Source of the DNA: Cupriavidus sp. AU9028
GTDB lineage: Bacteria > Pseudomonadota > Gammaproteobacteria > Burkholderiales > Burkholderiaceae
Direction of reading: 5' to 3'
Assembly (NCBI RefSeq): GCF_019795295.1
Contig: NZ_JAIMCG010000016.1
Span: 1-64,000, forward strand
Length of the DNA: 64,000 nucleotides
Positions within the stretch are counted from its first letter, which is position 1, and every line of letters begins with the position of its first letter. The translations under genes were made by a program, and so were the position numbers. Below the pieces are notes generated by a model. The model ran no database searches. It saw only the letters and a list, made by a program, of their open reading frames with translations, and had not been told where the DNA came from. Positions 9,651 through 62,226 of the stretch are shown one piece after another.

Positions 9651-12143
<2,493 letters not shown>

Positions 12144-12157
12144 GAAGGGAGAACGTC

Positions 12158-12640
12158 ATGAACATCGGTGAAGCATCCAAGGCTTCGAAGGTGTCGGCCA
12201 AGATGATCCGCTACTACGAGCAGATCGGTCTGATCCCCACGGCCAATCGAACCGATTCCGGCTACCGCGCCTACGCCAAGGAGGACGTACACCGGCTGCA
12301 CTTTATCCGGCGCGCACGCGACCTCGGATTTTCCGTCGCCGAGATAACGGACCTGCTTGGGCTGTGGAACGACAAATCGCGCCAAAGTGCCGACGTCAAG
12401 CGCCTGGCCCAGCAGCACATCGCCGAGTTGGACCGGCGCATCGCCAGCATGCTGGCGATGGCCGAGACGCTCAAGGCGCTGATCCGATGCTGCGTGGGCG
12501 ATGAACGGCCCGACTGCCCGATCCTGCTCACGCTGGAGCAGCCTGATACCAGCGATGATCCGCCCGAAGCACGCACCGGTGCCGTGCGCCGCCGCACGCG
12601 TGCCAACGGATCGTTGAAAAAAAAGCCGCATACGTACTGA
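12158..12640 (+). CDS. cueR: Copper-responsive MerR family activator
   Basis: A 160-residue MerR protein. It has an N-terminal winged helix (MNIGEASKASKVSAKMIRYY, then EQIGLI), a dimerisation helix (QQHIAELDRRIASMLAMAETLKAL), and the metal loop CCVGDERPDCPIL with the two cysteines characteristic of CueR. The start is at the conserved MNIGEAS, preceded by GAAGGGAGAACGTC. The C-terminal tail is longer than in E. coli CueR (about 30 extra residues, basic). It probably activates the 19-bp-spacer promoters before copA and copZ. Confidence 0.93.
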   Translation: MNIGEASKASKVSAKMIRYYEQIGLIPTANRTDSGYRAYAKEDVHRLHFIRRARDLGFSVAEITDLLGLWNDKSRQSADVKRLAQQHIAELDRRIASMLAMAETLKALIRCCVGDERPDCPILLTLEQPDTSDDPPEARTGAVRRRTRANGSLKKKPHTY

Positions 12641-17046: not shown

Positions 17047-19171
17047 AAGCTGGGCCGGCTCCGCAATGGATGCCGGGAAGAATCCGCCGACCAGAACAGC
17101 GCCCCAGCGCCGGCGCTCAATCACGCGTCGTCAGCTGCACCGCGGCCATTTCGGTTTCCTGCGCGCCATCATTCAGGGGCTGCATGCCCGCCCAATGTGG
17201 GAACGCTACCTTGCCGAGGAAGGCGAGATCGAGGCCGAAGGACCTGCCCTAAACACGGAAAGCGAGGATGAGGCCGCTTTCGCTGGCTATCCGAAAGTTC
17301 GCCGAGTGACCGCTTGGTTGCGAGGCGAGCTTGCGGCCGCTGCGCTGCGAGCGCATCGTCCCGGCATGGCGCGGCTGGTCCAGGTCGATTTTCGCCAGAT
17401 CGGACGCGCAGGCGTGGGGCTTCCTTCGTTGGAGGAATTCGCGGCTGCTGAAGGCCTCGACGGTTTTAGCGAGCGGGAGCAGCTGGAGGCGTATAGCGCG
17501 CGGTTTGGTGCGACCCTTCGTCGTGAGAGAAAGCGAATGGGATTGATGGCCAAGCAACTTGCGGCTATCGATTGGCTCGAAGCGCTTTACTCACGGCCGG
17601 TGCTGGTCGAGGACGCCTGCCGTGCGTGGCTGGCCGACACTATTGCTACCCGGCTTGAAGCCGCCGGCGTGGTCACGATCGGCGACCTCGTTGACCGCAT
17701 TAACAGCCTCGGCCGCGGATGGACGCGGGCTTTGCGTGGAATCGGCGCCGGTAAGGCGACTGCGATTGAGCGGTTTTTGGACGCGCATGCAGACACGCTG
17801 GCCCGCCGAGTAGGCCAGCACGTCGCCGTCCCGCGGCGGCAGCGATATGCCCACGAATTGGCCCGTGTGGTTCCTCAGGCTACGGCCCTTGTCCCGCTGG
17901 AGAAGTTGATCGTTCCCGCGGACCTCGATGGCAGGGCGGGCTGCTACCGGCGCCCTCAGCAACAATGCCTGCTGTCGGCGCGCAACGACTATGAAGCCGT
18001 TCTGGCCTGGCTGCGAGCGAAGCCCGGGCTGCCGCCTGAGGAGGTGGCGAGCTTGCGCGAGAAGCGTCGTGACGTCACCACGGTGCCCGGTCCTCTGGAC
18101 TGGCTCCACACTCTTTCTCACACTCAGCGCGCCTACCGAAAAGAGGCCGAGCGCTTCCTGCTTTGGGCAGTCCTCGTGCGGGGCAAGCCGCTGTCCTCGA
18201 TGAGCCACGAGGACTGCGTAAGCTATCGGGAATTCCTCGCTAGTCCGCCGCCGGAATGGTGCGCCCCCCGCTCCCGAGAGCGTTGGAGCCCGGCCTGGCG
18301 CCCCTTCGAAGGCCCTTTGTCCCCACGCGCGCAATCCTATGCGATCGGCGTGTTGAACAACCTGTACCGCTTCCTCGTTGACCAGAATTACCTGATGGGC
18401 AATCCGTGGCACGGCGTGCATGTACCTCGGCTCGCGGCGCCCAGGATGGATACCGGGCGCAGTTTCACCGCCCAACAATGGGAATTCCTGTGCGGGAGGC
18501 TTGCCGCGCTGCCGCCGACCTCTGCCAACGACCGGTTGCGCCTCGCTTTGCCGTTGCTCTATGCGACAGGGCTGCGCCTGTCGGAGGTGGTTGCGGCCAC
18601 CACCGACCACTTAGATTGGGAAAGCTTGCCTGACCCGGATGGGAAAGGTCGGGTGGAAGGCTGGTGGCTAGAGGTTTTAGGAAAGGGAAACAAGCTGCGC
18701 CGGGTGCCAGTGCCGCCCACGGTCATGAGGCAACTGGATGCTTACCTTGGAACTCGTGGATTTACCTCCGACAGCATCAACGGGCGGCTCCCTCGCGGGG
18801 TGGCGCTGCTGGGCCACGCGTTGGACGTGGATACCCGCGTCGCTTGGGTCCGTCGAGTTCCAGCAGATCCGGCCGCACCAATCTCTGTTCACACGCTCGC
18901 CGATCAACTGAAAGCCTTCTTTCGTGCCGCCGCGGCGGAAGTGCAAGACGAACGTGACGCTCAGCGGCTAGCGGCCGCGAGCACACACTGGCTACGTCAC
19001 ACCCACATCTCGCATGCGCTGGCTGCTGGCGCCCCGCTTGAAGTCGTGCAGCAGAATGCGGGGCATGCCTCTCTCGATACTACGACGCGCTACGTGACGA
19101 CGGAGAAGGCTCGGCGAATGGCGGCCATGCATGCCGTATGGTCACGGACCGAGCGGCCCGTGACAGAGTAG
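17039..19171 (+). CDS. Large tyrosine recombinase/integrase with DUF3701-like N-terminus
   Basis: A 710-residue site-specific recombinase. The N-terminal part (RRQLHRGHFGFLRAIIQGLH) and a helix-hairpin-helix-like segment near residues 210-250 (DLVDRINSLGRGWTRALRGI) resemble the DUF3701 group of plasmid and island integrases. A SAM-like core-binding domain follows (residues about 360-465). The catalytic domain has Arg in ATGLRLSEVV, Lys in GKGNKLRRVPVP, HWLRHTHISHALAAG (H-x-x-R-H), GHASLDTT and the nucleophile Tyr in TTRYVTT. All key residues are present, so it should be active. The start overlaps the HNH gene by 8 bases. The target site is unknown. Confidence 0.92.
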   Translation: MSESWAGSAMDAGKNPPTRTAPQRRRSITRRQLHRGHFGFLRAIIQGLHARPMWERYLAEEGEIEAEGPALNTESEDEAAFAGYPKVRRVTAWLRGELAAAALRAHRPGMARLVQVDFRQIGRAGVGLPSLEEFAAAEGLDGFSEREQLEAYSARFGATLRRERKRMGLMAKQLAAIDWLEALYSRPVLVEDACRAWLADTIATRLEAAGVVTIGDLVDRINSLGRGWTRALRGIGAGKATAIERFLDAHADTLARRVGQHVAVPRRQRYAHELARVVPQATALVPLEKLIVPADLDGRAGCYRRPQQQCLLSARNDYEAVLAWLRAKPGLPPEEVASLREKRRDVTTVPGPLDWLHTLSHTQRAYRKEAERFLLWAVLVRGKPLSSMSHEDCVSYREFLASPPPEWCAPRSRERWSPAWRPFEGPLSPRAQSYAIGVLNNLYRFLVDQNYLMGNPWHGVHVPRLAAPRMDTGRSFTAQQWEFLCGRLAALPPTSANDRLRLALPLLYATGLRLSEVVAATTDHLDWESLPDPDGKGRVEGWWLEVLGKGNKLRRVPVPPTVMRQLDAYLGTRGFTSDSINGRLPRGVALLGHALDVDTRVAWVRRVPADPAAPISVHTLADQLKAFFRAAAAEVQDERDAQRLAAASTHWLRHTHISHALAAGAPLEVVQQNAGHASLDTTTRYVTTEKARRMAAMHAVWSRTERPVTE

Positions 19172-35436: not shown

Positions 35437-36489
35437 TTAGAAAACACGTTCAATGTCGTAGTCGCCGTTCCGGAAGCCCTTGATCTCGATGATCTCCGAG
35501 ACGTGGCGCATTTCGCCCGTACGACGCATATGGATCACATAGTTGAAGCACTCTGCGATCAGCTTGCGCATATCCTCCAGCTCCCATCGCGAGCCGACCG
35601 GAATGCCGAGCATGGCCAGGCTCTCAAGGCGAGAGAGAGCTGCCTTGGCATTGTTGGCATGAAGCGAAGCCATGCCGCCGTCGTGGCCGGTGTTTAGCGC
35701 CTGTAGCAGGTCAAACGCTTCCCCGCCACGGACCTCACCGACGAGAATCCGGTCTGGCCGGAAGCGGAGCGCGAGAGCAACAAGCTGCTGAGTCGTGACG
35801 TTTTTGTCGGTGTTGGACAGCAGTCGGACCGCGTTGGGAACGCGCGTCTTCAGTTCCATCGTGTCCTCGATGGTCAGCACGCGCTCGCTCGCCGGAATGT
35901 TCTCGACCAGAGCGTTAAGTAGCGTGGTCTTTCCCGAGGAGGTGCCACCGGCAACTAGCACGTTCTTCCGCTGCTGCACCATCGCAATCAGCGCTTCCTT
36001 GAGCAGCTCATCCTCGACGGACCCGGCGAAGATGGGCATGTCGTTTGCCGTGCTTCGCGAGTGCTTGGCGGAGAACGCCCCGGCCCTTACATAGTCATTG
36101 AGGGAGAGGTTGGTTTCGCGATGCCGTCGAATGCTAAGCGCGTGGCCGTCGATGGCCGTCGGCTGCATGACCGCCGCTATCCGCAGCCCTTTGTGCCCGG
36201 CGTTGATGATGCCTTGGGCCGTACCCCGGACTGCCGACTTCTGGACAGACGAAGCGAGGGAGCGCACAGCCCCTTCGAGCTTGGCAGGCTCCAGTTGTAC
36301 CTCTACGCGGGTCATCTCACCACGACGCTCTACCCAGATGCTGTCGTGTCTATTGACCATGACTTCCGCCACATCCGGCGCATCGATGTACTCACGAATC
36401 GGTGCCAGCGACTCAAAGAACATCGCAACAGCGCTTTCCTCGAGCTGACTCAGTTGCAGGACCGGATGGGTTGATGCGGACGTTTCCAT
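35437..36489 (-). CDS. virB11: VirB11/TrbB secretion ATPase
   Basis: A 350-residue hexameric ATPase from [12 protein letters not shown]. It has an N-terminal domain with [20 protein letters not shown], Walker A GGTSSGKT, the Asp box ([10 protein letters not shown]), Walker [20 protein letters not shown] and the His box [14 protein letters not shown]. It is the first gene of the leftward transfer operon, and would energise pilus assembly and substrate transfer with VirB4. The promoter lies in the 36490-36862 gap. Confidence 0.94.
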
Positions 36490-36862
36490 GGCCGCTATTG
36501 TTGGCGGCCTTGGAACCATGAAGCAGACTGAAAGCTGGGCGATTTTCGTGAGCTTTCATAGGCCGTGGCCTGGGAGGGGCGATGCGGAGCTTGTCGACCG
36601 CCGGCAATTCTCCGCTGCCCCACAGACCGGCGAGGCGCGCGATATCCTGATATTGAGTTGGCCAGGAAATCAGGGGTAGGAAACGTGACGTTTCGCCCGA
36701 AAGTTGGTCGTTCAGAACTCGAGGGCTTCTGGGGTGGGAGCAGCGGTGGCCGAAGCGGTTCCTCAGTTGTGCAGTCGGAAAGCTGTTGAAAATCGCATAG
36801 CTTTTGCCGGTCTCTCCGCTGGTGATCGCTGATTCAATTGCGGCATCTCAAAGGACTGCCGC
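36490..36862. promoter_or_regulatory. Divergent promoter region of the two transfer operons
   Basis: No gene is supported. The gap separates virB11 (left) and virB8 (right), so it should carry both transfer promoters. No strong sigma-70 consensus was seen for either, which fits dependence on an activator. The perfect 15-bp palindrome at 36680-36694 sits in the middle. Confidence 0.6.
36680..36694. promoter_or_regulatory. Perfect palindrome in the transfer promoter region
   Basis: GAAACGT-G-ACGTTTC, exact 7-bp arms. Its central place between the divergent virB operons makes it a candidate operator for a transfer regulator. Confidence 0.5.
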
Positions 36863-37570
36863 ATGGGCCTCTTCCGCAAGAATTCCAGTAAAGCTAAGCC
36901 TCTGGCGGTCGCGCCCGGGATGTATGCCAATGAGAGCACCGAACAGGTGATCTTCGACAGGACTACCCGCCTGGCCATCGAGCGCAACCACTGGAAGATT
37001 GCAACCCTCGGCATCGGCTGCATCGCGTTGGCTGCGATCGTCACCCGAGAGCCGGCACCTTCGGTCGTCACCACGGTCGGCGTTTCGGCCGACGCAAGTG
37101 GGAAGCCCATTGTTCGGGAGTTGCAGGCGTTCCAGCCAGAGGGCATCCAGCTTCAATGGGCGTTCAAGGACCTGGTCACTCGCTGGTTCACCATCGAGCC
37201 GCTGTTGACGGCCCAGGTGGAGGACTCGCGTATGGCGAGCAACCTGCGGTCCGTGAGGGCGCAAATGGTGGGGTCCGCGCGGAAGCAGTTCGAGGATTGG
37301 GTGGCCGAGGACGAGCCCTTCCGTCAGGTGGGCGTATCTCCAACGCTGATTCGGGAGGTACGTGTCACCAACATTGCACTGCTTCCGGACAGCACGGTCG
37401 CTGTCGAGTTCGTAGCGACGTCCACCGAGGACGGCTACAAGCCGCGCAAGATGCGGTACGCCATGACGTTCCGCTATCAAGTGAAGCCACCGACCAGCGA
37501 TGCGGTGCTGGGGACTAATCCCTTCGGCATCCACCCCGTGTTCTTCAGCATTCAGAAATCGCCGGCTTGA
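36863..37570 (+). CDS. virB8: VirB8/TrbF-like inner-membrane scaffold protein
   Basis: A 235-residue bitopic protein: a cytoplasmic N-terminus, a membrane segment at about 44-60 (WKIATLGIGCIALAAIV) and a periplasmic NTF2-like domain with LVTRWFTIEPLLTAQVEDSR, RVTNIALLPDSTVAVEFVAT and the TrbF-like end NPFGIHPVFFSIQKS. It bridges inner- and outer-membrane parts of the secretion channel. First gene of the rightward transfer operon. Confidence 0.88.
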   Translation: MGLFRKNSSKAKPLAVAPGMYANESTEQVIFDRTTRLAIERNHWKIATLGIGCIALAAIVTREPAPSVVTTVGVSADASGKPIVRELQAFQPEGIQLQWAFKDLVTRWFTIEPLLTAQVEDSRMASNLRSVRAQMVGSARKQFEDWVAEDEPFRQVGVSPTLIREVRVTNIALLPDSTVAVEFVATSTEDGYKPRKMRYAMTFRYQVKPPTSDAVLGTNPFGIHPVFFSIQKSPA

Positions 37571-52098: not shown

Positions 52099-53121
52099 TC
52101 AAAACGCAGTGAAGCTCCAGGTCTTGCTAACGGGGATTCCGTTCCGAGCTCCGCTAAACGTCGCCGTGTACACGCCAGCAGGGAGCGGTTGGATCGGAAG
52201 CATGAAAGCCACGCCTCGAACCACGTTCGCATCTTCAATGACCGAGGCCGCCGACGCAGTCTTCGCATTCGGTGCTACGAGGACCCGAACTGGAATCGCG
52301 GCTCCGTTGGGACCTGCGAGGGTAAAGCTGTTCACCGTCAGGGCATCAGCATCCGACGTTGCCGGCACTCGGAACATCACCGGACGACCTGCCATCGTGA
52401 GATCGGGCGCGGGATTCGGCCGTTCTGCCGCCGGGTTGAAGCTGCCAATAACGGTGTCGTTGTCAAACGGGAAGTAGGTCATGTTACCCGCCGACATTTG
52501 CTGGCCGCCCCAGGTGGGAAGCCCATATCCGCTTCCATTTGCGCCTGTGATCACCCCAAAGTTGATGACGCAGAGATTGTCACGAACCGCGATGCCGACC
52601 GTTTCCTGGACCCCCGTGATTCCCTGCAGGTGATAAACCGAATTCGCGAAGCCGAGGGCGCACTCCAAGCCGTCCGGCGCACCACCGGCTACTTGCGCGA
52701 TCCATTGGGCTCGATCAGCGCCAGCCGCAACTCCTTGCTCGTAGGGGTTCACGCCGGTAAAGCCCGGCTTGCCAGCTTCTTCCTCGTGCGCAACGACATT
52801 GTTCGCAGCCATATATCCCAGGTGACTGTCGGCGGAACGGTCGAGGGCTTCGTCCTGCTTCAGAACCCCAACCCCCAGCTTGAGGCGCAGGCTGTTCAGC
52901 GTCTCGTAAGCGACCAGCCGCTGGTCCCCAGCTGGGTAGGTCGGCGTCGGTGCGGTCGTGCTCGGCGGGACGGAGGTTGGAGGAGCGGGTTGCGGCTCCA
53001 CCGGTGGGTTAGTGGGTGCGGGGTCGCTACCGCCCTCGTCGCCGCCGCCGCCACCGCAAGCCGCCAGAGCAAAGACCATCGCCGATGCGAGAGCAGTGAA
53101 AGACAACTTCTTGTTCTGCAT
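52099..53121 (-). CDS. CAP-domain lipoprotein
   Basis: A 340-residue exported lipoprotein from MQNKKLSFTALASA; the lipobox is ALAAC followed by a Gly run. A Pro/Thr-rich linker leads to a bacterial CAP (SCP/PR1) domain at about residues 65-200: LVAYETLNSLRLKLGVGVLK, DRSADSHLGYMAANNVVAHE, TGVNPYEQGVAAG and a second Cys pair. A C-terminal Ig-like beta domain ends it. Bacterial CAP proteins are linked to surface adhesion or plasmid mating in some IncHI elements. The promoter carries the motif shared with the FlhDC-like operon. Confidence 0.85.
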   Translation of the reverse strand: MQNKKLSFTALASAMVFALAACGGGGGDEGGSDPAPTNPPVEPQPAPPTSVPPSTTAPTPTYPAGDQRLVAYETLNSLRLKLGVGVLKQDEALDRSADSHLGYMAANNVVAHEEEAGKPGFTGVNPYEQGVAAGADRAQWIAQVAGGAPDGLECALGFANSVYHLQGITGVQETVGIAVRDNLCVINFGVITGANGSGYGLPTWGGQQMSAGNMTYFPFDNDTVIGSFNPAAERPNPAPDLTMAGRPVMFRVPATSDADALTVNSFTLAGPNGAAIPVRVLVAPNAKTASAASVIEDANVVRGVAFMLPIQPLPAGVYTATFSGARNGIPVSKTWSFTAF

Positions 53122-53178
53122 TATCAATTTCCTTTTACTATTTTTCGTGGCCCGGGGATTCGGTCCGTTACATTCAGC

Positions 53179-53305: not shown

Positions 53306-53644
53306 TCATTTCGACCTGTAGAGGGTCTTGCCGCAGTGATTGCAACTGTGGAACTGCTGCCTTGATAGCAGAGTCCGATGGCGCCAGAGCCTGATGCTGC
53401 CGGACCCACAGTGGGCGCAGCGCATACCTCTTGGCGTTGTGCTCTGGGGGAAACGGAGCTGGTACTCCTGGAGCGTGGGCACACTACTCGATGGCAGGAG
53501 GGCAAGTAGCACCAGGCCTATATACGATGAGCCCGTGCAGAGCACCGCCCACAGCCAGCCATTACGTCCTCTCTTGGTTGCCAGAAGATAGGCCAGGTAG
53601 GCCGGAACAAAGGAGTAGATGCAGATGGTGAAGAGGCTGCTCAT
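53306..53644 (-). CDS. Membrane protein with C-terminal zinc ribbon
   Basis: A 112-residue protein: two hydrophobic segments at residues 5-23 (FTICIYSFVPAYLAYLLA) and 30-50 (WLWAVLCTGSSYIGLVLLAL), then a Zn-ribbon CAHCGSGSIRLWR...CNHCGKTLYR (two CxxC pairs about 20 apart). The gene overlaps the end of the FlhDC-like gene by 4 bases, so it is third in that operon. Its function is unknown; the coupling suggests a link to the regulator. Confidence 0.7.
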   Translation of the reverse strand: MSSLFTICIYSFVPAYLAYLLATKRGRNGWLWAVLCTGSSYIGLVLLALLPSSSVPTLQEYQLRFPQSTTPRGMRCAHCGSGSIRLWRHRTLLSRQQFHSCNHCGKTLYRSK

Positions 53645-54915
53645 GGGTGGGGGTCAGCCATAGAGAGGCGATCGCTTGAGAGTCTGACGTCGTCAATCAG
53701 TAGTGGTGCTCGCCTGCTGGACGCAAGCTCCTTTCGGGGCCGGCCCCGTTGCTTGCGGTGCAGGGGCGAGTTGGGCGACGACAATGCACCAGAACAACAA
53801 GGACACTGGAACGAGTTGGCGAGCTCAATCTTCGGCGCAGTATTTGAGGCGAGATATGGAGTCCCACAGGACCGGCACGACCGAATTGCGAGGTCTTCAT
53901 CCGTCGACATCGACCGCGTCAGGTGGAACGCCCGTTCGGCCGGCATGAACGCGTCCCCGAAGAGCCGGCGACAAACATCCATTGCGCAAATGAATGCCTC
54001 AGGGATCGTTGCCGCTTCGGCAAGCGCGCTGCGGAATAGCCACAACAGCGCAGTTGACTGGACACGCCTCGAGGCCGACTCCAGATACCACACCGCTGAG
54101 GCGGGTTGCTGACCCGAAGGCGACGACTCTCCGTGGATCTGCAGATACAGCTCCCGCATCTTCTCGGGAGTGGTGTCGAAGAGTGCAGCCACGCTTTTCG
54201 CACGACAGCGCATTCTAATGAAGCCCTCGCAGTACGCCATTCTAACGAACCGCGACAGATGGAAGTTTCCCCAGGGGCCGGAGTGCGGCAATCGATCTGA
54301 CCGGATCGGCGAACTGTCCATGATGTAATGGGCTACGGTATCGGCAGTCAGTCTGCCGGCCACCGCCTCGAACCAGAAGATTCGGTTCGGAAGGCGCCAC
54401 TTGAACAGTGGTATACGGCGCTCGGCTATGGCCAGGTCAATCTTGTGCTGAGGCACCGAGCGAAGATACTCCGCCAGCTCGACGGACATGCCGAGGATGG
54501 GTGCCGCCAGCAGCGACATATTCAGGACGTCGTACAGCGCAGTTAGATAGGCTCGATTTGCCTGCTCAAGCTGCATGTGCTGGACCGGCGTGAGCGTCGG
54601 CATGCTCTTGGCCAGCGTGCCGACGCTAGTGGTCGGTGTGCGTCCATCGATGTAGCTTTTCCAATCCTCCGGGGACGAGAGCGTGGGAAGGAATGCTAGG
54701 AACGGCACCCCGAAGATGAGCGACGAGGTCTCGTGATCATCCCGGAGGCGGGCGATATCTTCGTGCTCGGCATCGAACAGCGGCGCGAGCGTCCTCGTGA
54801 CAGCCAGCGCGTTGACGATATAGGTCGTCAAACGGAAGTTCGCTGACATGATGCGGTCCAAGACCCATTGGGGAAGCAGAAACTGGTCGGAGAGGCCCTT
54901 TGTGTGCTGCTTCAT
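53641..54915 (-). CDS. FlhD-FlhC fusion-like transcriptional regulator
   Basis: A 424-residue protein. Residues about 115-180 read like FlhD (RAYLTALYDVLNMSLLAAPI then LGMSVELAEYLRSVPQHKID and LAIAERRIPLFKWRL), matching the FlhD pattern of LGI, a Leu-rich helix, LA and FRF. Residues about 222-380 read like FlhC: AKSVAALFDTTPEKMRELYL, a Trp/Leu-rich helical core (LLWLFRSALAEAATIPEAFI), then CRSC (347/350) and CPCC (371/374), which parallel the FlhC zinc ligands. A tail has the AT-hook-like RGRPRK (390-395). FlhC and FlhD are separate proteins in flagellar and in SetCD/AcaCD systems. It is the likely transfer activator, translated together with the gene before it. Confidence 0.65.
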   Translation of the reverse strand: MKQHTKGLSDQFLLPQWVLDRIMSANFRLTTYIVNALAVTRTLAPLFDAEHEDIARLRDDHETSSLIFGVPFLAFLPTLSSPEDWKSYIDGRTPTTSVGTLAKSMPTLTPVQHMQLEQANRAYLTALYDVLNMSLLAAPILGMSVELAEYLRSVPQHKIDLAIAERRIPLFKWRLPNRIFWFEAVAGRLTADTVAHYIMDSSPIRSDRLPHSGPWGNFHLSRFVRMAYCEGFIRMRCRAKSVAALFDTTPEKMRELYLQIHGESSPSGQQPASAVWYLESASRRVQSTALLWLFRSALAEAATIPEAFICAMDVCRRLFGDAFMPAERAFHLTRSMSTDEDLAIRSCRSCGTPYLASNTAPKIELANSFQCPCCSGALSSPNSPLHRKQRGRPRKELASSRRAPLLIDDVRLSSDRLSMADPHP

Positions 54916-56075
54916 GGCTTCGCTCCCGCTACCTTGTCGACCAACTCGTACAGGTTCTTGGCGGCATCGCGAAGGGTCACGAGGAGAGGACGGAGCGGCT
55001 TGGTCCCGGCCGTCGAGAAGGATGTCTGGAACTTCTCCGTGGCCGCCTCAATATCCGCCTTGATTCCGGTGAGCCGGATAGAGAGCTGTCTCTCATCCAG
55101 CTTCAGTGTTTTGCTGTCGAGCAGCTCGTTCTGCGCCGCGCTCAGGTCGGCCCTCGTTTTTGACAGGGCGGCGTTGGTATCAGCGAGTTCCTGGTTCGCT
55201 TGGTCGATCGCGTCTTTGATCGACTGGTATCCCCTCGGGACGACCTCTACCTCCTTGACTACCTCCCGGACACGCATCTCCGAGACGCGCTTCTCAAGCT
55301 CCGTCTTTTCGCGCCCGAACCGTTCCACAGCCAGCTGCAGCGAATGGACGGTGTTGCTCTGGGAGTCGAGCGCGATCTGCGCTGCGGCAAGCGCGTCCCG
55401 AAGCTCCGATTCCTTTTTACCTGACGTAGCGCTCAGCTCTCTCAGATATTTGATCTCTAGCTCAAGCTGGATCTTCTCAGAGGTGCCGGCAGCCAGCTGC
55501 TCTTTTGCGGTCTCCAGCTGAGCCATCAGGGTGTTGATTTCGTCGTTCGCAGCGCGGTACCGCTCGATGAACGGAACGATCTCGTCTCGGGAAAACTGTT
55601 CCTGCCGTTTGCGCGCGTCAACAAGCAGCTGCACTTCAGCGTCGCTGATGTCGGAGCGCTTCAGAATTGTGAGTTCCCCTAGGTTGAGAAACTCCACGGC
55701 CTCGCTGCTATTCACGAAGCGCTGATAGACCTGAAGGTACTGGATGACCGTGTGCTTACTGATCTGAAGCGTGTTTGATGCGTAGTCGTTCAGCAGTTTC
55801 CCGGCCTGGGTTTTCGCGCGCGCGGGGTTCTCTAGACGCTTGTTCAGCGCGATGTACATCGTTTGATGGATGTCCGCAAGATACGAACCGATCAGCATGT
55901 ACTCGGTCCGGATTCGTTCCCGCGCCTGTGCAATCTGCTCGGCCGCATGGACGATGCGGCCGATGGCCGCCGTATCGACCTCGGAGGCCAGGAGCAGCCT
56001 CGTCATCTGCAGAATGGATAGAGATTGCCCCTTGTCCTGAGGCGCGGGCAGATTACTTTGTCCTTCGTTTTCCAT
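54912..56075 (-). CDS. Coiled-coil protein coupled to the FlhDC-like regulator (KfrA-like?)
   Basis: A 387-residue helical protein from MENEGQSNLPAPQD; GGAAGGAAG precedes the ATG. Residues 40-150 (IGRIVHAAEQIAQARERIRT, ISKHTVIQYLQVYQRF) look like a DNA-binding helical region resembling DUF3102/KorB-like segments. Residues 165-330 are a continuous coiled coil (AANDEINTLMAQLETAKEQL, GREKTELEKRVSEMRVREVV). This architecture recalls plasmid KfrA or nucleoid-like proteins. Its stop overlaps the FlhDC-like ATG. The role is inferred. Confidence 0.65.
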   Translation of the reverse strand: MENEGQSNLPAPQDKGQSLSILQMTRLLLASEVDTAAIGRIVHAAEQIAQARERIRTEYMLIGSYLADIHQTMYIALNKRLENPARAKTQAGKLLNDYASNTLQISKHTVIQYLQVYQRFVNSSEAVEFLNLGELTILKRSDISDAEVQLLVDARKRQEQFSRDEIVPFIERYRAANDEINTLMAQLETAKEQLAAGTSEKIQLELEIKYLRELSATSGKKESELRDALAAAQIALDSQSNTVHSLQLAVERFGREKTELEKRVSEMRVREVVKEVEVVPRGYQSIKDAIDQANQELADTNAALSKTRADLSAAQNELLDSKTLKLDERQLSIRLTGIKADIEAATEKFQTSFSTAGTKPLRPLLVTLRDAAKNLYELVDKVAGAKP

Positions 56076-56131
56076 CTTCCTTCCTGAGTGCTTTGCTACC
56101 GGCGGACGCTCACGGCGCTGTCCCTTCCAAA

Positions 56132-56156
56132 TTACTAGCCGGTTCGCAAAGTCAAG
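56132..56156 (-). promoter_or_regulatory. Promoter of the coiled-coil/FlhDC-like operon
   Basis: Minus strand CTTGACTTTGCG (56156-56145), 10 bp, TAA (56134-56132), identical in design to the CAP gene promoter at 53179-53203. It lies 57 bp before the start. Confidence 0.55.
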
Positions 56157-56764
56157 TTGCTGGCGCTCGAGCATGCAGCTCCGGCCGAATACGACGTCAA
56201 CGGGAGGTTAGACGGGGTGAGGAACCCCTTGGAGGGCGAAAGCTCACGAAATCATCGTGTCTTTCGATGTCAAGTCCCAGAAAAAGCCTATCTTTGCCCC
56301 TCATTTAACGGCAGCAATTCTGTGCAATTTAGGGTAACCACCTATCCGTTGGGGGCGGCTGTATATACAGCGTAGCAAGTGGTCAATATCGTGATATCGA
56401 GTTGCCCGCTAAATCGTCAGCTCCGCCACGTGCAAATCATGGAAAAGAGCCTGGCCCACTCGCACGGTGCTAGGGGCTTGGAGGTGCCACTGTTGTTGCG
56501 TGGTCGTCGGGAATTCGTGTAGATTTGCGATGCGTCCTCACGCATCGAATCTCGCGCCGCCTCACGGGCACACACGCCCTCGTTTCCCTTCTTTCCAGCG
56601 GCGCCTCTCAATTGCTTCCCATCCTGAGCGTCTTTGCGTCATGCAATCTCGAGCATGTCGCAAGCGCGTTCGCGCTCGTCTTTGGATTCCTTGCTCATTC
56701 GAGCATCGAATAGTCGCCCGGCATCCGCCAGGCCATCCCTTTGTCTCGTTTCTTGAGAGAAACC
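56157..56764. other. Intergenic region with two palindromes
   Basis: No gene is supported in about 600 bp. Perfect palindromes lie at 56358-56371 (GCTGTATATACAGC) and 56386-56397 (ATATC-GT-GATAT), 14 bp apart; these are candidate operators between the leftward regulator operon and the rightward ssb block. The rest is a long GC-rich leader to the small membrane protein gene. Confidence 0.55.
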
Positions 56765-60790: not shown

Positions 60791-61225
60791 CTAGCCGAAG
60801 CGCTCCATGGCGTTGTTGAGTGCCTGCAGATCGAGTCCACTGAGCGCATCGTCGTCGGTAACGCCAGGTGGCGGTTGGGTGGAGGCGTACGCAAGCCGGT
60901 AGACAGTAGCCCCATCTGGGGCCACGGCAGGAGCATTTGGCGCGTTCGCCTTTGGGGCAGCGAGCGGCGGTGGAGGCGGCGCCGCGGGGGGCGGGTGAAG
61001 TGCGCCGTGTGCTGGGACGGTCGGGACCGCCGTTCGGCTCGGGGCGACGAGCAGTCCGTCCACGCCCGCGCTGGCGAGCAGCTGCAGGCCTCGCTGTGCG
61101 AGGAGCCTGAGCATCAGCGCACGCTCCCGCGCTCCGCGGAACTGCCGGAGATACGCAAGCAGCTCGGGGTTCGAGTCCTCGGATATCGTAACGGACATCT
61201 GAAGCTTGTCGATGGATGCTTGCAT
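60791..61225 (-). CDS. Partner of the ParM-like protein (ParR/StbB-like)
   Basis: A 144-residue protein beginning MQASIDKLQMSVTISEDSNP. The N-terminal 55 residues resemble small ribbon-helix-helix or helical adaptors (PELLAYLRQFRGARERALML), followed by a long Pro/Ala-rich linker (residues 75-105) and a short C-terminal tail (LSGLDLQALNNAMERFG). The ATG overlaps the parM-like stop. In type II partition the second gene encodes the centromere-binding adaptor whose C-terminal tip caps the actin filament; the layout fits. Confidence 0.65.
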   Translation of the reverse strand: MQASIDKLQMSVTISEDSNPELLAYLRQFRGARERALMLRLLAQRGLQLLASAGVDGLLVAPSRTAVPTVPAHGALHPPPAAPPPPPLAAPKANAPNAPAVAPDGATVYRLAYASTQPPPGVTDDDALSGLDLQALNNAMERFG

Positions 61226-62226
61226 CAGGTATTCCTCGTGGCTTGCCGGGCAGAGCCAATGCTGTAGAACCCACGAACGTTCGCGAAGCAGGGTGCGTCC
61301 ATAATATGGATCGTGTTCAGCGGAAAGGCCGCGCGAATTGTAGGTGCGTAGAGCTGTGCACCACCGCCGGTCAGGATGATCGCCCGGATATCCTCAGAGC
61401 GGCCAACACGTGTCTGTATCTCCTTCACAGGCTGATGAGTGACTGCCATGGCCTGCTCGAGATAAGGGGAGATGTCGAGGTCCTGCCCGTAGAACAACAT
61501 GGGCTTGGCATCGCGGATGGCCTTGTCGATACGCTCGATACTGTCTGTTGCCTGTCCCAGGTGCGAGGAGATCAGGCTGGCGATCTGCTGATAGACCCGC
61601 GCCGCGCCGCCGGGGACGCCGCCACTGCGGGTGTCATCCATCGTGTACCCCCGGGCGACAACCCAGTCGGTCGTGTAGTAACCCACGTCAACAACGAGGT
61701 AGGCATTGTCAGGGTCATAGCTCTTGCCAGTCCGTTGAATGTAGGTAATCAGACTGCCGAGCGGCTGAGGAAGGGGCAGGACGCTCCCAATCTTGATCTC
61801 GCCCCAGCCGAAGTTGTGCACGCCTGAAAACCGGTCTTTAAGATAGGCCGCGTACTTGTTCGTGTTATGGACCGGCAGACCGAGCACGAGGCGGTCCACT
61901 TCTCTCGCCTTAGCATAGTGAAGGGAGCCGGCGAGCAGCGCCGCGTAATTCGGCGTCGTGACGAAGTCCTCGGAAAGCGAGCGGCCCGTATGGACGTGCG
62001 CAGCGCTCAGAGAAACATCCGGTCCCACTTCGTACCTGGCGCCGTCGATCTCCACATGCACTACGTCACGGGCACGGAAGAGGCCGCCACCGTGCGGAGT
62101 GAGTGAGGAAGTGGCGGCTACTGGAGCAAGGGAAGGAAACATTCGGGTTGCAACATCAGACCCGAGGGGAAAGGCGGATTTGGTGTTGCCGTAGCCAACG
62201 TCGACAGCGACGGTCGAGATCTTCAT
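61225..62226 (-). CDS. parM: ParM/StbA-like actin-family partition ATPase
   Basis: A 333-residue actin-like protein: phosphate 1 VAVDVGYGNTKSAF (residues 7-20), YLVVDVGYYTTDWVVARGYT (phosphate 2) and AIILTGGGAQLYAPTIRAAF (adenosine motif). It polymerises to push plasmid copies apart. GGAG lies 6 bases before the ATG. It is a second partition system beside ParAB at 21-23 kb. Confidence 0.88.
   Translation of the reverse strand: MKISTVAVDVGYGNTKSAFPLGSDVATRMFPSLAPVAATSSLTPHGGGLFRARDVVHVEIDGARYEVGPDVSLSAAHVHTGRSLSEDFVTTPNYAALLAGSLHYAKAREVDRLVLGLPVHNTNKYAAYLKDRFSGVHNFGWGEIKIGSVLPLPQPLGSLITYIQRTGKSYDPDNAYLVVDVGYYTTDWVVARGYTMDDTRSGGVPGGAARVYQQIASLISSHLGQATDSIERIDKAIRDAKPMLFYGQDLDISPYLEQAMAVTHQPVKEIQTRVGRSEDIRAIILTGGGAQLYAPTIRAAFPLNTIHIMDAPCFANVRGFYSIGSARQATRNT

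Follow-up and report, generated by a model that had tools for sequence, protein, structure and literature searches.

A plasmid-borne protein best read as two FlhD-like units and an FlhC domain in one chain, a candidate activator of conjugative transfer in Burkholderiaceae

Activators related to the flagellar regulator FlhD4C2 are known from conjugative elements. Two of them, AcaCD from IncA/C plasmids and SetCD from the SXT/R391 ICEs, each pair an FlhC-like with an FlhD-like protein, the two being separate polypeptides. AcaCD acts at long sites in class II promoters of transfer genes (PMC4207636, PMC5058578), which have no clear -35 element, a -10 element 22-24 bp from the site and the core GCCCAAAATGGGC (PMC5058578). 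BisDC of ICEclc, also a transfer regulator with an FlhC-like component, exerts positive feedback on its own promoter, as shown experimentally (PMC7423338). Its subunits come from separate genes: BisD has a ParB domain, with no FlhD domain detected, and BisC matches DUF2857. The flagellar FlhD4C2 is itself the product of separate genes, has flagellar targets and binds 17-18-bp inverted repeats with a 10-11-bp spacer; its ring has FlhD subunits in two peripheral and two internal positions (PMC3510510).

The 64,000-nucleotide stretch of DNA analysed here (the window) belongs to contig C7 of a Cupriavidus genome of 4.68 Mb and encodes a protein that we call D-D-C, as it is best read as two FlhD-like units followed by an FlhC domain, that is, as the 2:1 ratio of FlhD4C2 within one chain. 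Whereas AcaCD and SetCD are two separate proteins, D-D-C would combine the parts in a single chain and add another FlhD-like unit. The window carries a plasmid backbone with genes for a type IV secretion system (T4SS), comprising VirB8, VirB9 and VirB10, a VirB11-type ATPase, VirB4, a coupling protein and a T2SS/T4P ATPase, in agreement with an earlier note on this DNA that had placed the protein on a conjugative element. The gene and its surroundings are as follows.

54912-56174, minus strand: operon gene 1, with a 420-aa product that has coiled-coil-like matches; overlaps the start of the D-D-C gene by 4 bases (ATGA)
53641-54915, minus strand: D-D-C fusion gene, 424 aa, one open frame
54631-54876, minus strand: FlhD-like unit 1, divergent, aa ~14-95
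54316-54594, minus strand: FlhD-like unit 2, aa ~108-200
53776-54252, minus strand: FlhC domain, aa ~222-380, with Cys 347, 350, 371 and 374
53644-53775, minus strand: tail of D-D-C, aa 381-424, with RGRPRK; poorly conserved (dN/dS 0.39 against the relative at locus L008)
53306-53644, minus strand: operon gene 3, with a 112-aa product that has four Cys; overlaps the stop of the D-D-C gene by 4 bases (ATGA)
36863-37570, plus strand: virB8 (PF04335, 1.7e-28), start of a rightward transfer/pilus gene run
35437-36489, minus strand: gene for a virB11-type ATPase (PF00437, 5.4e-40), start of a leftward transfer gene run

The start of virB11 was set at the conserved ATG at 36489 and not at the ORF start at 36519, and the operon continuity of both transfer gene runs was read from gene spacing. 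The small four-Cys protein encoded at 53306-53644 on the minus strand has hydrophobic stretches. Beyond it, the minus strand encodes a CAP-domain protein with a lipoprotein-like start (52099-53127), and many annotated relatives also have CAP-domain genes after D-D-C. On the other side of the operon, the gene at 61225-62226 on the minus strand encodes PRTRC system protein D, a ParM-like actin (TIGR03739, 3e-110).

The D and C parts of the protein are not separate polypeptides; they lie in one 424-aa frame, which has profile matches to both and is kept across the family, as expected from the earlier note's reading of a fusion of FlhD-like and FlhC-like parts. The FlhC pattern that it had placed at residues 222-380 is borne out by a Pfam match of the single sequence to PF05280 at aa 234-375 (E = 2.9e-6, 27.6 bits for a cut-off of 27), by an NCBIfam FlhC match (1.5e-6, 28 bits, under the model's own cut-off of 216) and by a family profile that finds the PDB chains 8j56_C (5.9e-10) and 2avu_E (6.6e-7). 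PF05280 is the sole Pfam match at E ≤ 5; neither ParB nor DUF2857 was found in D-D-C, in contrast to BisDC. FlhC cysteines bind zinc. The Cys pairs 347/350 and 371/374, which had been proposed to occupy the FlhC zinc site, align to residues 137/140/157/160 of 2avu_E and are conserved without exception in all 19 alignment rows (the L010 sequence, with a broken frame, was omitted from alignments). By residue position D-D-C has the four-Cys zinc site of FlhC, and zinc binding is predicted; zinc sites of FlhD4C2 are mentioned in PMC3510510. Public annotation already names the FlhC part (FlhC family transcriptional regulator) and leaves both FlhD units unnamed. The AT-hook-like tail that the earlier note had singled out as an additional oddity is ruled out as a family feature, its GRP core being found in just 3 of 19 rows (the window, L008 and L009).

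The FlhD pattern reported at residues 115-180 falls within unit 2 (aa ~108-200). No FlhD was found in either unit of the window protein by single-sequence searches of Pfam (even at E ≤ 5), NCBIfam or the PDB. The family profile of unit 2, by comparison with 177,635 PDB sequences, has FlhD (8j56_A) as its best match at 3.8e-4, and the check suggested with the original observation, profile searches against FlhD and FlhC structures, returns both domains. A scan of 18 family members at E ≤ 10 gave PF05247 matches to unit 2 in six (best 2.1e-4), with the window's own unit 2 absent from them. In HHalign comparisons unit 2 matches chromosomal FlhD at 4.6e-7 (a set of 31 rows in which the genome's own FlhD is counted twice) and the mobile and chromosomal FlhDs together at 5e-11. 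A split FlhD, encoded apart from its FlhC at L158, was compared by BLASTP with 29 family rows (3 of them repeats) in a small database; its match to unit 2 reaches E ≤ 0.01 in 15 rows (best 6e-10), and the window protein is matched in unit 2 only (0.087). A plain HMMER FlhD model reaches a mere 0.29 on the D-D-C protein of L092. In many genomes the family profile crosses one stop codon from an upstream gene into flhC, as in genome G119, where it matches 400614-401339 and FlhC lies at 400842-401357; we take the gene upstream of flhC that is reached in this way to be flhD. By family profile, unit 2 reads as an FlhD-type subunit.

A role in the control of transfer, which had been thought probable, gains likelihood from candidate operators at virB8, virB11 and the D-D-C operon itself, the first two of which lie within 36490-36862. 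Each is a 28-bp near-palindrome, GAAAG-N16-AGCTTTC, whose centre is often A-rich (AAAATCG or AAAATGG), and each is followed by a -10-like hexamer.

36778-36805, plus strand: 28-bp box facing virB8
36833-36838, plus strand: -10-like hexamer TTCAAT, 27 bp after the virB8 box
36530-36557, minus strand: 28-bp box facing virB11
36497-36502, minus strand: -10-like hexamer AACAAT, 27 bp after the virB11 box
56238-56265, minus strand: 28-bp box, 64 bp upstream of gene 1 of the D-D-C operon
56205-56210, minus strand: -10-like hexamer TAACCT, 27 bp after the own-operon box

These boxes are rare in the genome and recur in related loci. The exact pattern occurs genome-wide only at 36530-36557 and 56238-56265 (a backward-pattern control gave 0), and the longer form GAAAGCT-N5-AAATCG-N3-AGCTTTC has, at ≤3 mismatches, two sites in the 4.68 Mb, which both lie in the virB8-virB11 intergenic region. 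With up to one mismatch allowed, the window gives five strand matches, which represent only the three sites (0.28 expected). The intergenic region between virB8 and virB11 was recovered from 16 of 25 loci (one locus had neither gene and eight had virB8 only); in 15 of these 16 it contains the box twice, one toward each gene, with L124 lacking a clear box. Upstream of the own operon, a box with ≤1 mismatch lies within 700 bp in 17 of 24 Cupriavidus loci versus 3 of 2400 shuffled regions, at distances that range from 64 to 358 bp, most of them near 100 or 150; the other seven loci have no such box within 700 bp. In pMOL28 (L012), an IS1086 copy (17712-18731) separates a box-like site (17519-17546) from the D-D-C operon, which starts at 18806. 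Across four plasmid stretches, 17 of 18 box sites are intergenic versus 12% expected. Six intergenic boxes occur in the plasmid pBMC401 (L013; 3113, 4604, 4674, 10540, 17192 and 18058), among them sites upstream of PRTRC parB, of a methylase gene, of PRTRC-D and of the D-D-C operon; they may reflect a wider regulon there.

Counted at ≤1 mismatch, D-D-C loci contain 55 box sites in Cupriavidus (469 kb) and 8 in the Burkholderia group (184 kb), counts that are not independent because many loci are near-copies. By eye, 8 Burkholderia-group loci have a full box upstream of virB8 in L128 only and elsewhere a partial one at most. At this threshold neither the 105 kb around chromosomal flhDC nor the 236 kb from other mobile FlhC loci contains a box, and this absence is weak evidence because just ~0.5-1 would be expected there by chance. 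The split loci of Polaromonas, Azonexus and Cupriavidus USMAA2-4 have three sites in 99 kb, all of them within annotated genes.

The distance from box to hexamer is close to constant. At virB8 a TTCAAT-like and at virB11 an AACAAT-like hexamer lies 26-27 bp past the box (12 loci each, from the 16 recovered after dropping the near-copies L113, L116 and L120 and also L124, with no clear box). Since the virB11 hexamer lies 7 bases from the conserved ATG, a nearly leaderless mRNA would be needed there. The D-D-C operon has a TAnnCT-like hexamer at exactly 27 bp, its T, A, C and T being kept in 14, 14, 15 and 15 of 16 loci; the 26 bases between box and hexamer have no column of at least 0.9 bits in these loci. 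The 16 come from 24, less the near-copies L141, L148 and L149 and the loci with no site (L136, L012, L009, L010 and L021). They include L143 and L146, which misfit the spacing, as well as L138, L145 and L147, whose sites have two mismatches. For loci with more than one site (L019, L092, L144 and L147), the one nearest to the gene was used and not the best match, and the hexamer had already been noticed in five loci before the spacing was counted.

The candidate boxes occupy a class II-like position at putative transfer promoters, 26-27 bp from a -10-like hexamer. AcaCD likewise acts from a long site at class II promoters of transfer genes (PMC4207636, PMC5058578), and the centre GCAAAATGGC of several boxes from D-D-C loci resembles the AcaCD core. 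Site sequence and spacing are unlike those of AcaCD (26-27 bp here versus 22-24 bp). In the mechanism we propose, D-D-C would bind the 28-bp near-palindrome 26-27 bp from the hexamer and, as a class II activator, turn on the leftward virB11 gene run and, through the facing box, the rightward virB8/pilus gene run. The third box, at its own operon, may provide positive feedback, in which D-D-C would resemble BisDC (PMC7423338).

The box could alternatively be the operator of another plasmid protein, either the product of operon gene 1 or a ParB/Kor-like global regulator, with D-D-C acting elsewhere or as a co-factor. In 15 of 16 annotated loci (the exception is L029), D-D-C does follow a gene of 1.1-1.3 kb that lies on its own strand, and the pBMC401 boxes upstream of PRTRC parB, the methylase gene and PRTRC-D fit a regulator of this kind. 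The constant 26-27-bp spacing to a -10-like hexamer, however, suggests a class II activator and not a repressor or parS, and both the arrangement and the core of the sites resemble those of AcaCD. We consider another binding protein unlikely.

The part of D-D-C that precedes unit 2 was absent from the earlier note as an FlhD-like unit. Unit 1 (aa ~14-95) matches a profile of 20 mobile-element FlhDs at 2.2e-4 in HHalign, collinear across 73 columns, with none of 200 column shuffles (nearest score 20.6 versus 26.4) and none of 96 segments of other plasmid proteins (nearest 8.5e-4) being as good. With the combined mobile and chromosomal FlhD set, the best shuffle comes close (24.5 versus 25.4). 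The split FlhD of L158 matches unit 1 in tandem with unit 2 in a few relatives (L027 at 0.006 and, weakly, L020 at 0.082 and L022 at 0.083), and, in an alignment read by eye, both units show an invariant Asn and, further on, P and W landmarks at similar positions. These observations argue against a simpler D-C fusion of the kind that the earlier note had proposed, in which aa 1-100 would be an unrelated added domain and FlhD parts would pair between chains to give a D2C2 or other ring. Such a fusion would account for the lack of a direct FlhD match to aa 1-105, given that unit 1 has no Pfam FlhD match in any of 18 family members, no FlhD in a profile search of the PDB and no HHalign match to the chromosomal FlhD profile. 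It would also fit the weak match (0.0057) between units 1 and 2 in HHalign, for which 2 of 200 shuffles were as good (3 of 200 in the reverse direction). An SBP_bac_11 match of one unit 1 member (0.0092) was taken as chance. On balance we find the D-C fusion improbable and think that unit 1 is, with good confidence, a second, divergent FlhD-like unit, supported more weakly than the FlhC domain, unit 2 and the boxes with their spacing, all of which can be read from the sequence.

Purifying selection is indicated in all three parts by dN/dS against L008 (0.044 in unit 1, 0.026 in unit 2 and 0.015 in FlhC, with dS near saturation). Against L009, unit 1 appears less constrained (0.33, versus 0.10 in unit 2; FlhC was not computable).

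The second unit bears on the predicted oligomer. PDB 8j56 contains four FlhD and two FlhC chains. In the 2AVU paper, each FlhC reportedly binds an FlhD2 dimer. D-D-C resembles the flagellar complex in its FlhC zinc-site cysteines, its FlhD domain and, provided that unit 1 is FlhD, its two D to one C (PDB 2avu, 8j56). With two FlhD-like units per chain, the composition of the chain would equal that of one FlhD2C half, and once unit 1 is accepted as FlhD, the claim in the earlier note that fusion forces a 1:1 stoichiometry and a different oligomer falls, as the 2:1 ratio of FlhD4C2 is kept. Each D-D-C chain would hold the content of an FlhD2C half-complex, and two chains may pair via their FlhC parts into a D4C2-like ring, so that a homodimer could rebuild D4C2.

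Among 72,556 plasmid records we found 51 matches to D-D-C, 48 of them over at least 80% of the protein, and these 48 come from Cupriavidus, Burkholderia, Paraburkholderia, Caballeronia and Robbsia; matching records have the same layout as the window, pil genes included. A family profile search finds D-D-C in ~41 of 299 Burkholderiaceae genomes. In 40 of these a single match covers at least 380 of the 394 positions, interrupted in three by an in-frame stop, and the remaining one is G677, where (C8, 17661-18817) the gene is in two overlapping frames that part inside unit 2, through a frameshift or an assembly error. Among 398 phylum-wide genomes, D-D-C was detected only in its own genome and in one other of its genus, and six Cupriavidus rows used as queries against viral_contigs yielded no relative. 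A tree built from 61 FlhC domains unites the 20 D-D-C rows in a single clade (SH-aLRT 99), which groups at 89 with rows from Polaromonas, L064, L078 and Azonexus; L158 is outside this tree.

Unlike flagellar flhDC, a pair of separate genes that the same genome carries as flhD and flhC on contig C5, D-D-C is by its sequence a fused gene on C7 beside T4SS genes. That it is a moonlighting or decaying copy of a flagellar regulator with no role in transfer, as its clear FlhC kinship might suggest, is highly improbable in view of those separate genes, its own clade in the FlhC tree, purifying selection against L008, its presence on 48 plasmid records and the location of the candidate operators at transfer genes.

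Other mobile elements carry split or differently fused versions of the same subunits. In Polaromonas pPNAP01 and the second locus of Cupriavidus USMAA2-4 (L158), D and then C follow an upstream gene of similar size and adjoin TraI/TraD, and the FlhC tree places the Polaromonas C domain with the closest neighbours of D-D-C (89). These pairs differ from D-D-C in having one separate D and one separate C. Their upstream genes show no clear relationship to operon gene 1 of the window (no match for L014 and L064; best 0.01). A plasmid of Polaromonas sp. P1-6 encodes a tandem D-D protein, with halves 65% identical, beside a separate FlhC (L015, 11202-11942 and 11923-12477). A profile search of 31 other non-canonical FlhC loci (L061-L091) found a D domain beside C in one frame in none of them and a separate D frame in 30, with a D model that includes many of these. 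Six of the 31 (L080 and L087-L091, five of them from one genus) have two FlhC stretches per frame, some weak, with a separate FlhD frame present. Azonexus L016 also has a C-C frame (11359-12552), with no D found by profile search.

Among the literature matches listed, in which subscription journals are thinly covered, none describes such a fusion, and none of the papers reports control of transfer of pHG1, pMOL28, pBB2 or pBMC401 by a protein of this type. The best reading of D-D-C is that of a self-activating master activator of transfer of the AcaCD/SetCD type with a new single-chain architecture. We judge it probable as a whole that a single-chain D-D-C activator forms a D4C2-like homodimer, binds the 28-bp box in a class II position and acts as a self-activating transfer switch.

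We also lean, by a small measure, towards a broader view in which the subunits of FlhD4C2 have been joined into single chains repeatedly on mobile elements, as D-D-C on Burkholderiaceae plasmids, as D-D with a separate C in Polaromonas P1-6 and as C-C in L080 and L087-L091 (with a separate D) and Azonexus. D-D-C would then amount to a complete half-complex whose two FlhD units are specialised and non-equivalent, and its homodimer would be the whole activator, whose own level and positive feedback would set the transfer switch. D-D-C would show one gene acting as an entire heterohexameric activator, and a single chain would need no balance between two subunits. A covalent FlhD2C would also separate the peripheral and internal FlhD positions, which are filled by the same protein in FlhD4C2, so that each could change alone. 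For the Burkholderiaceae megaplasmids pHG1, pMOL28, pBB2 and pBMC401, the box offers a concrete and testable regulon.
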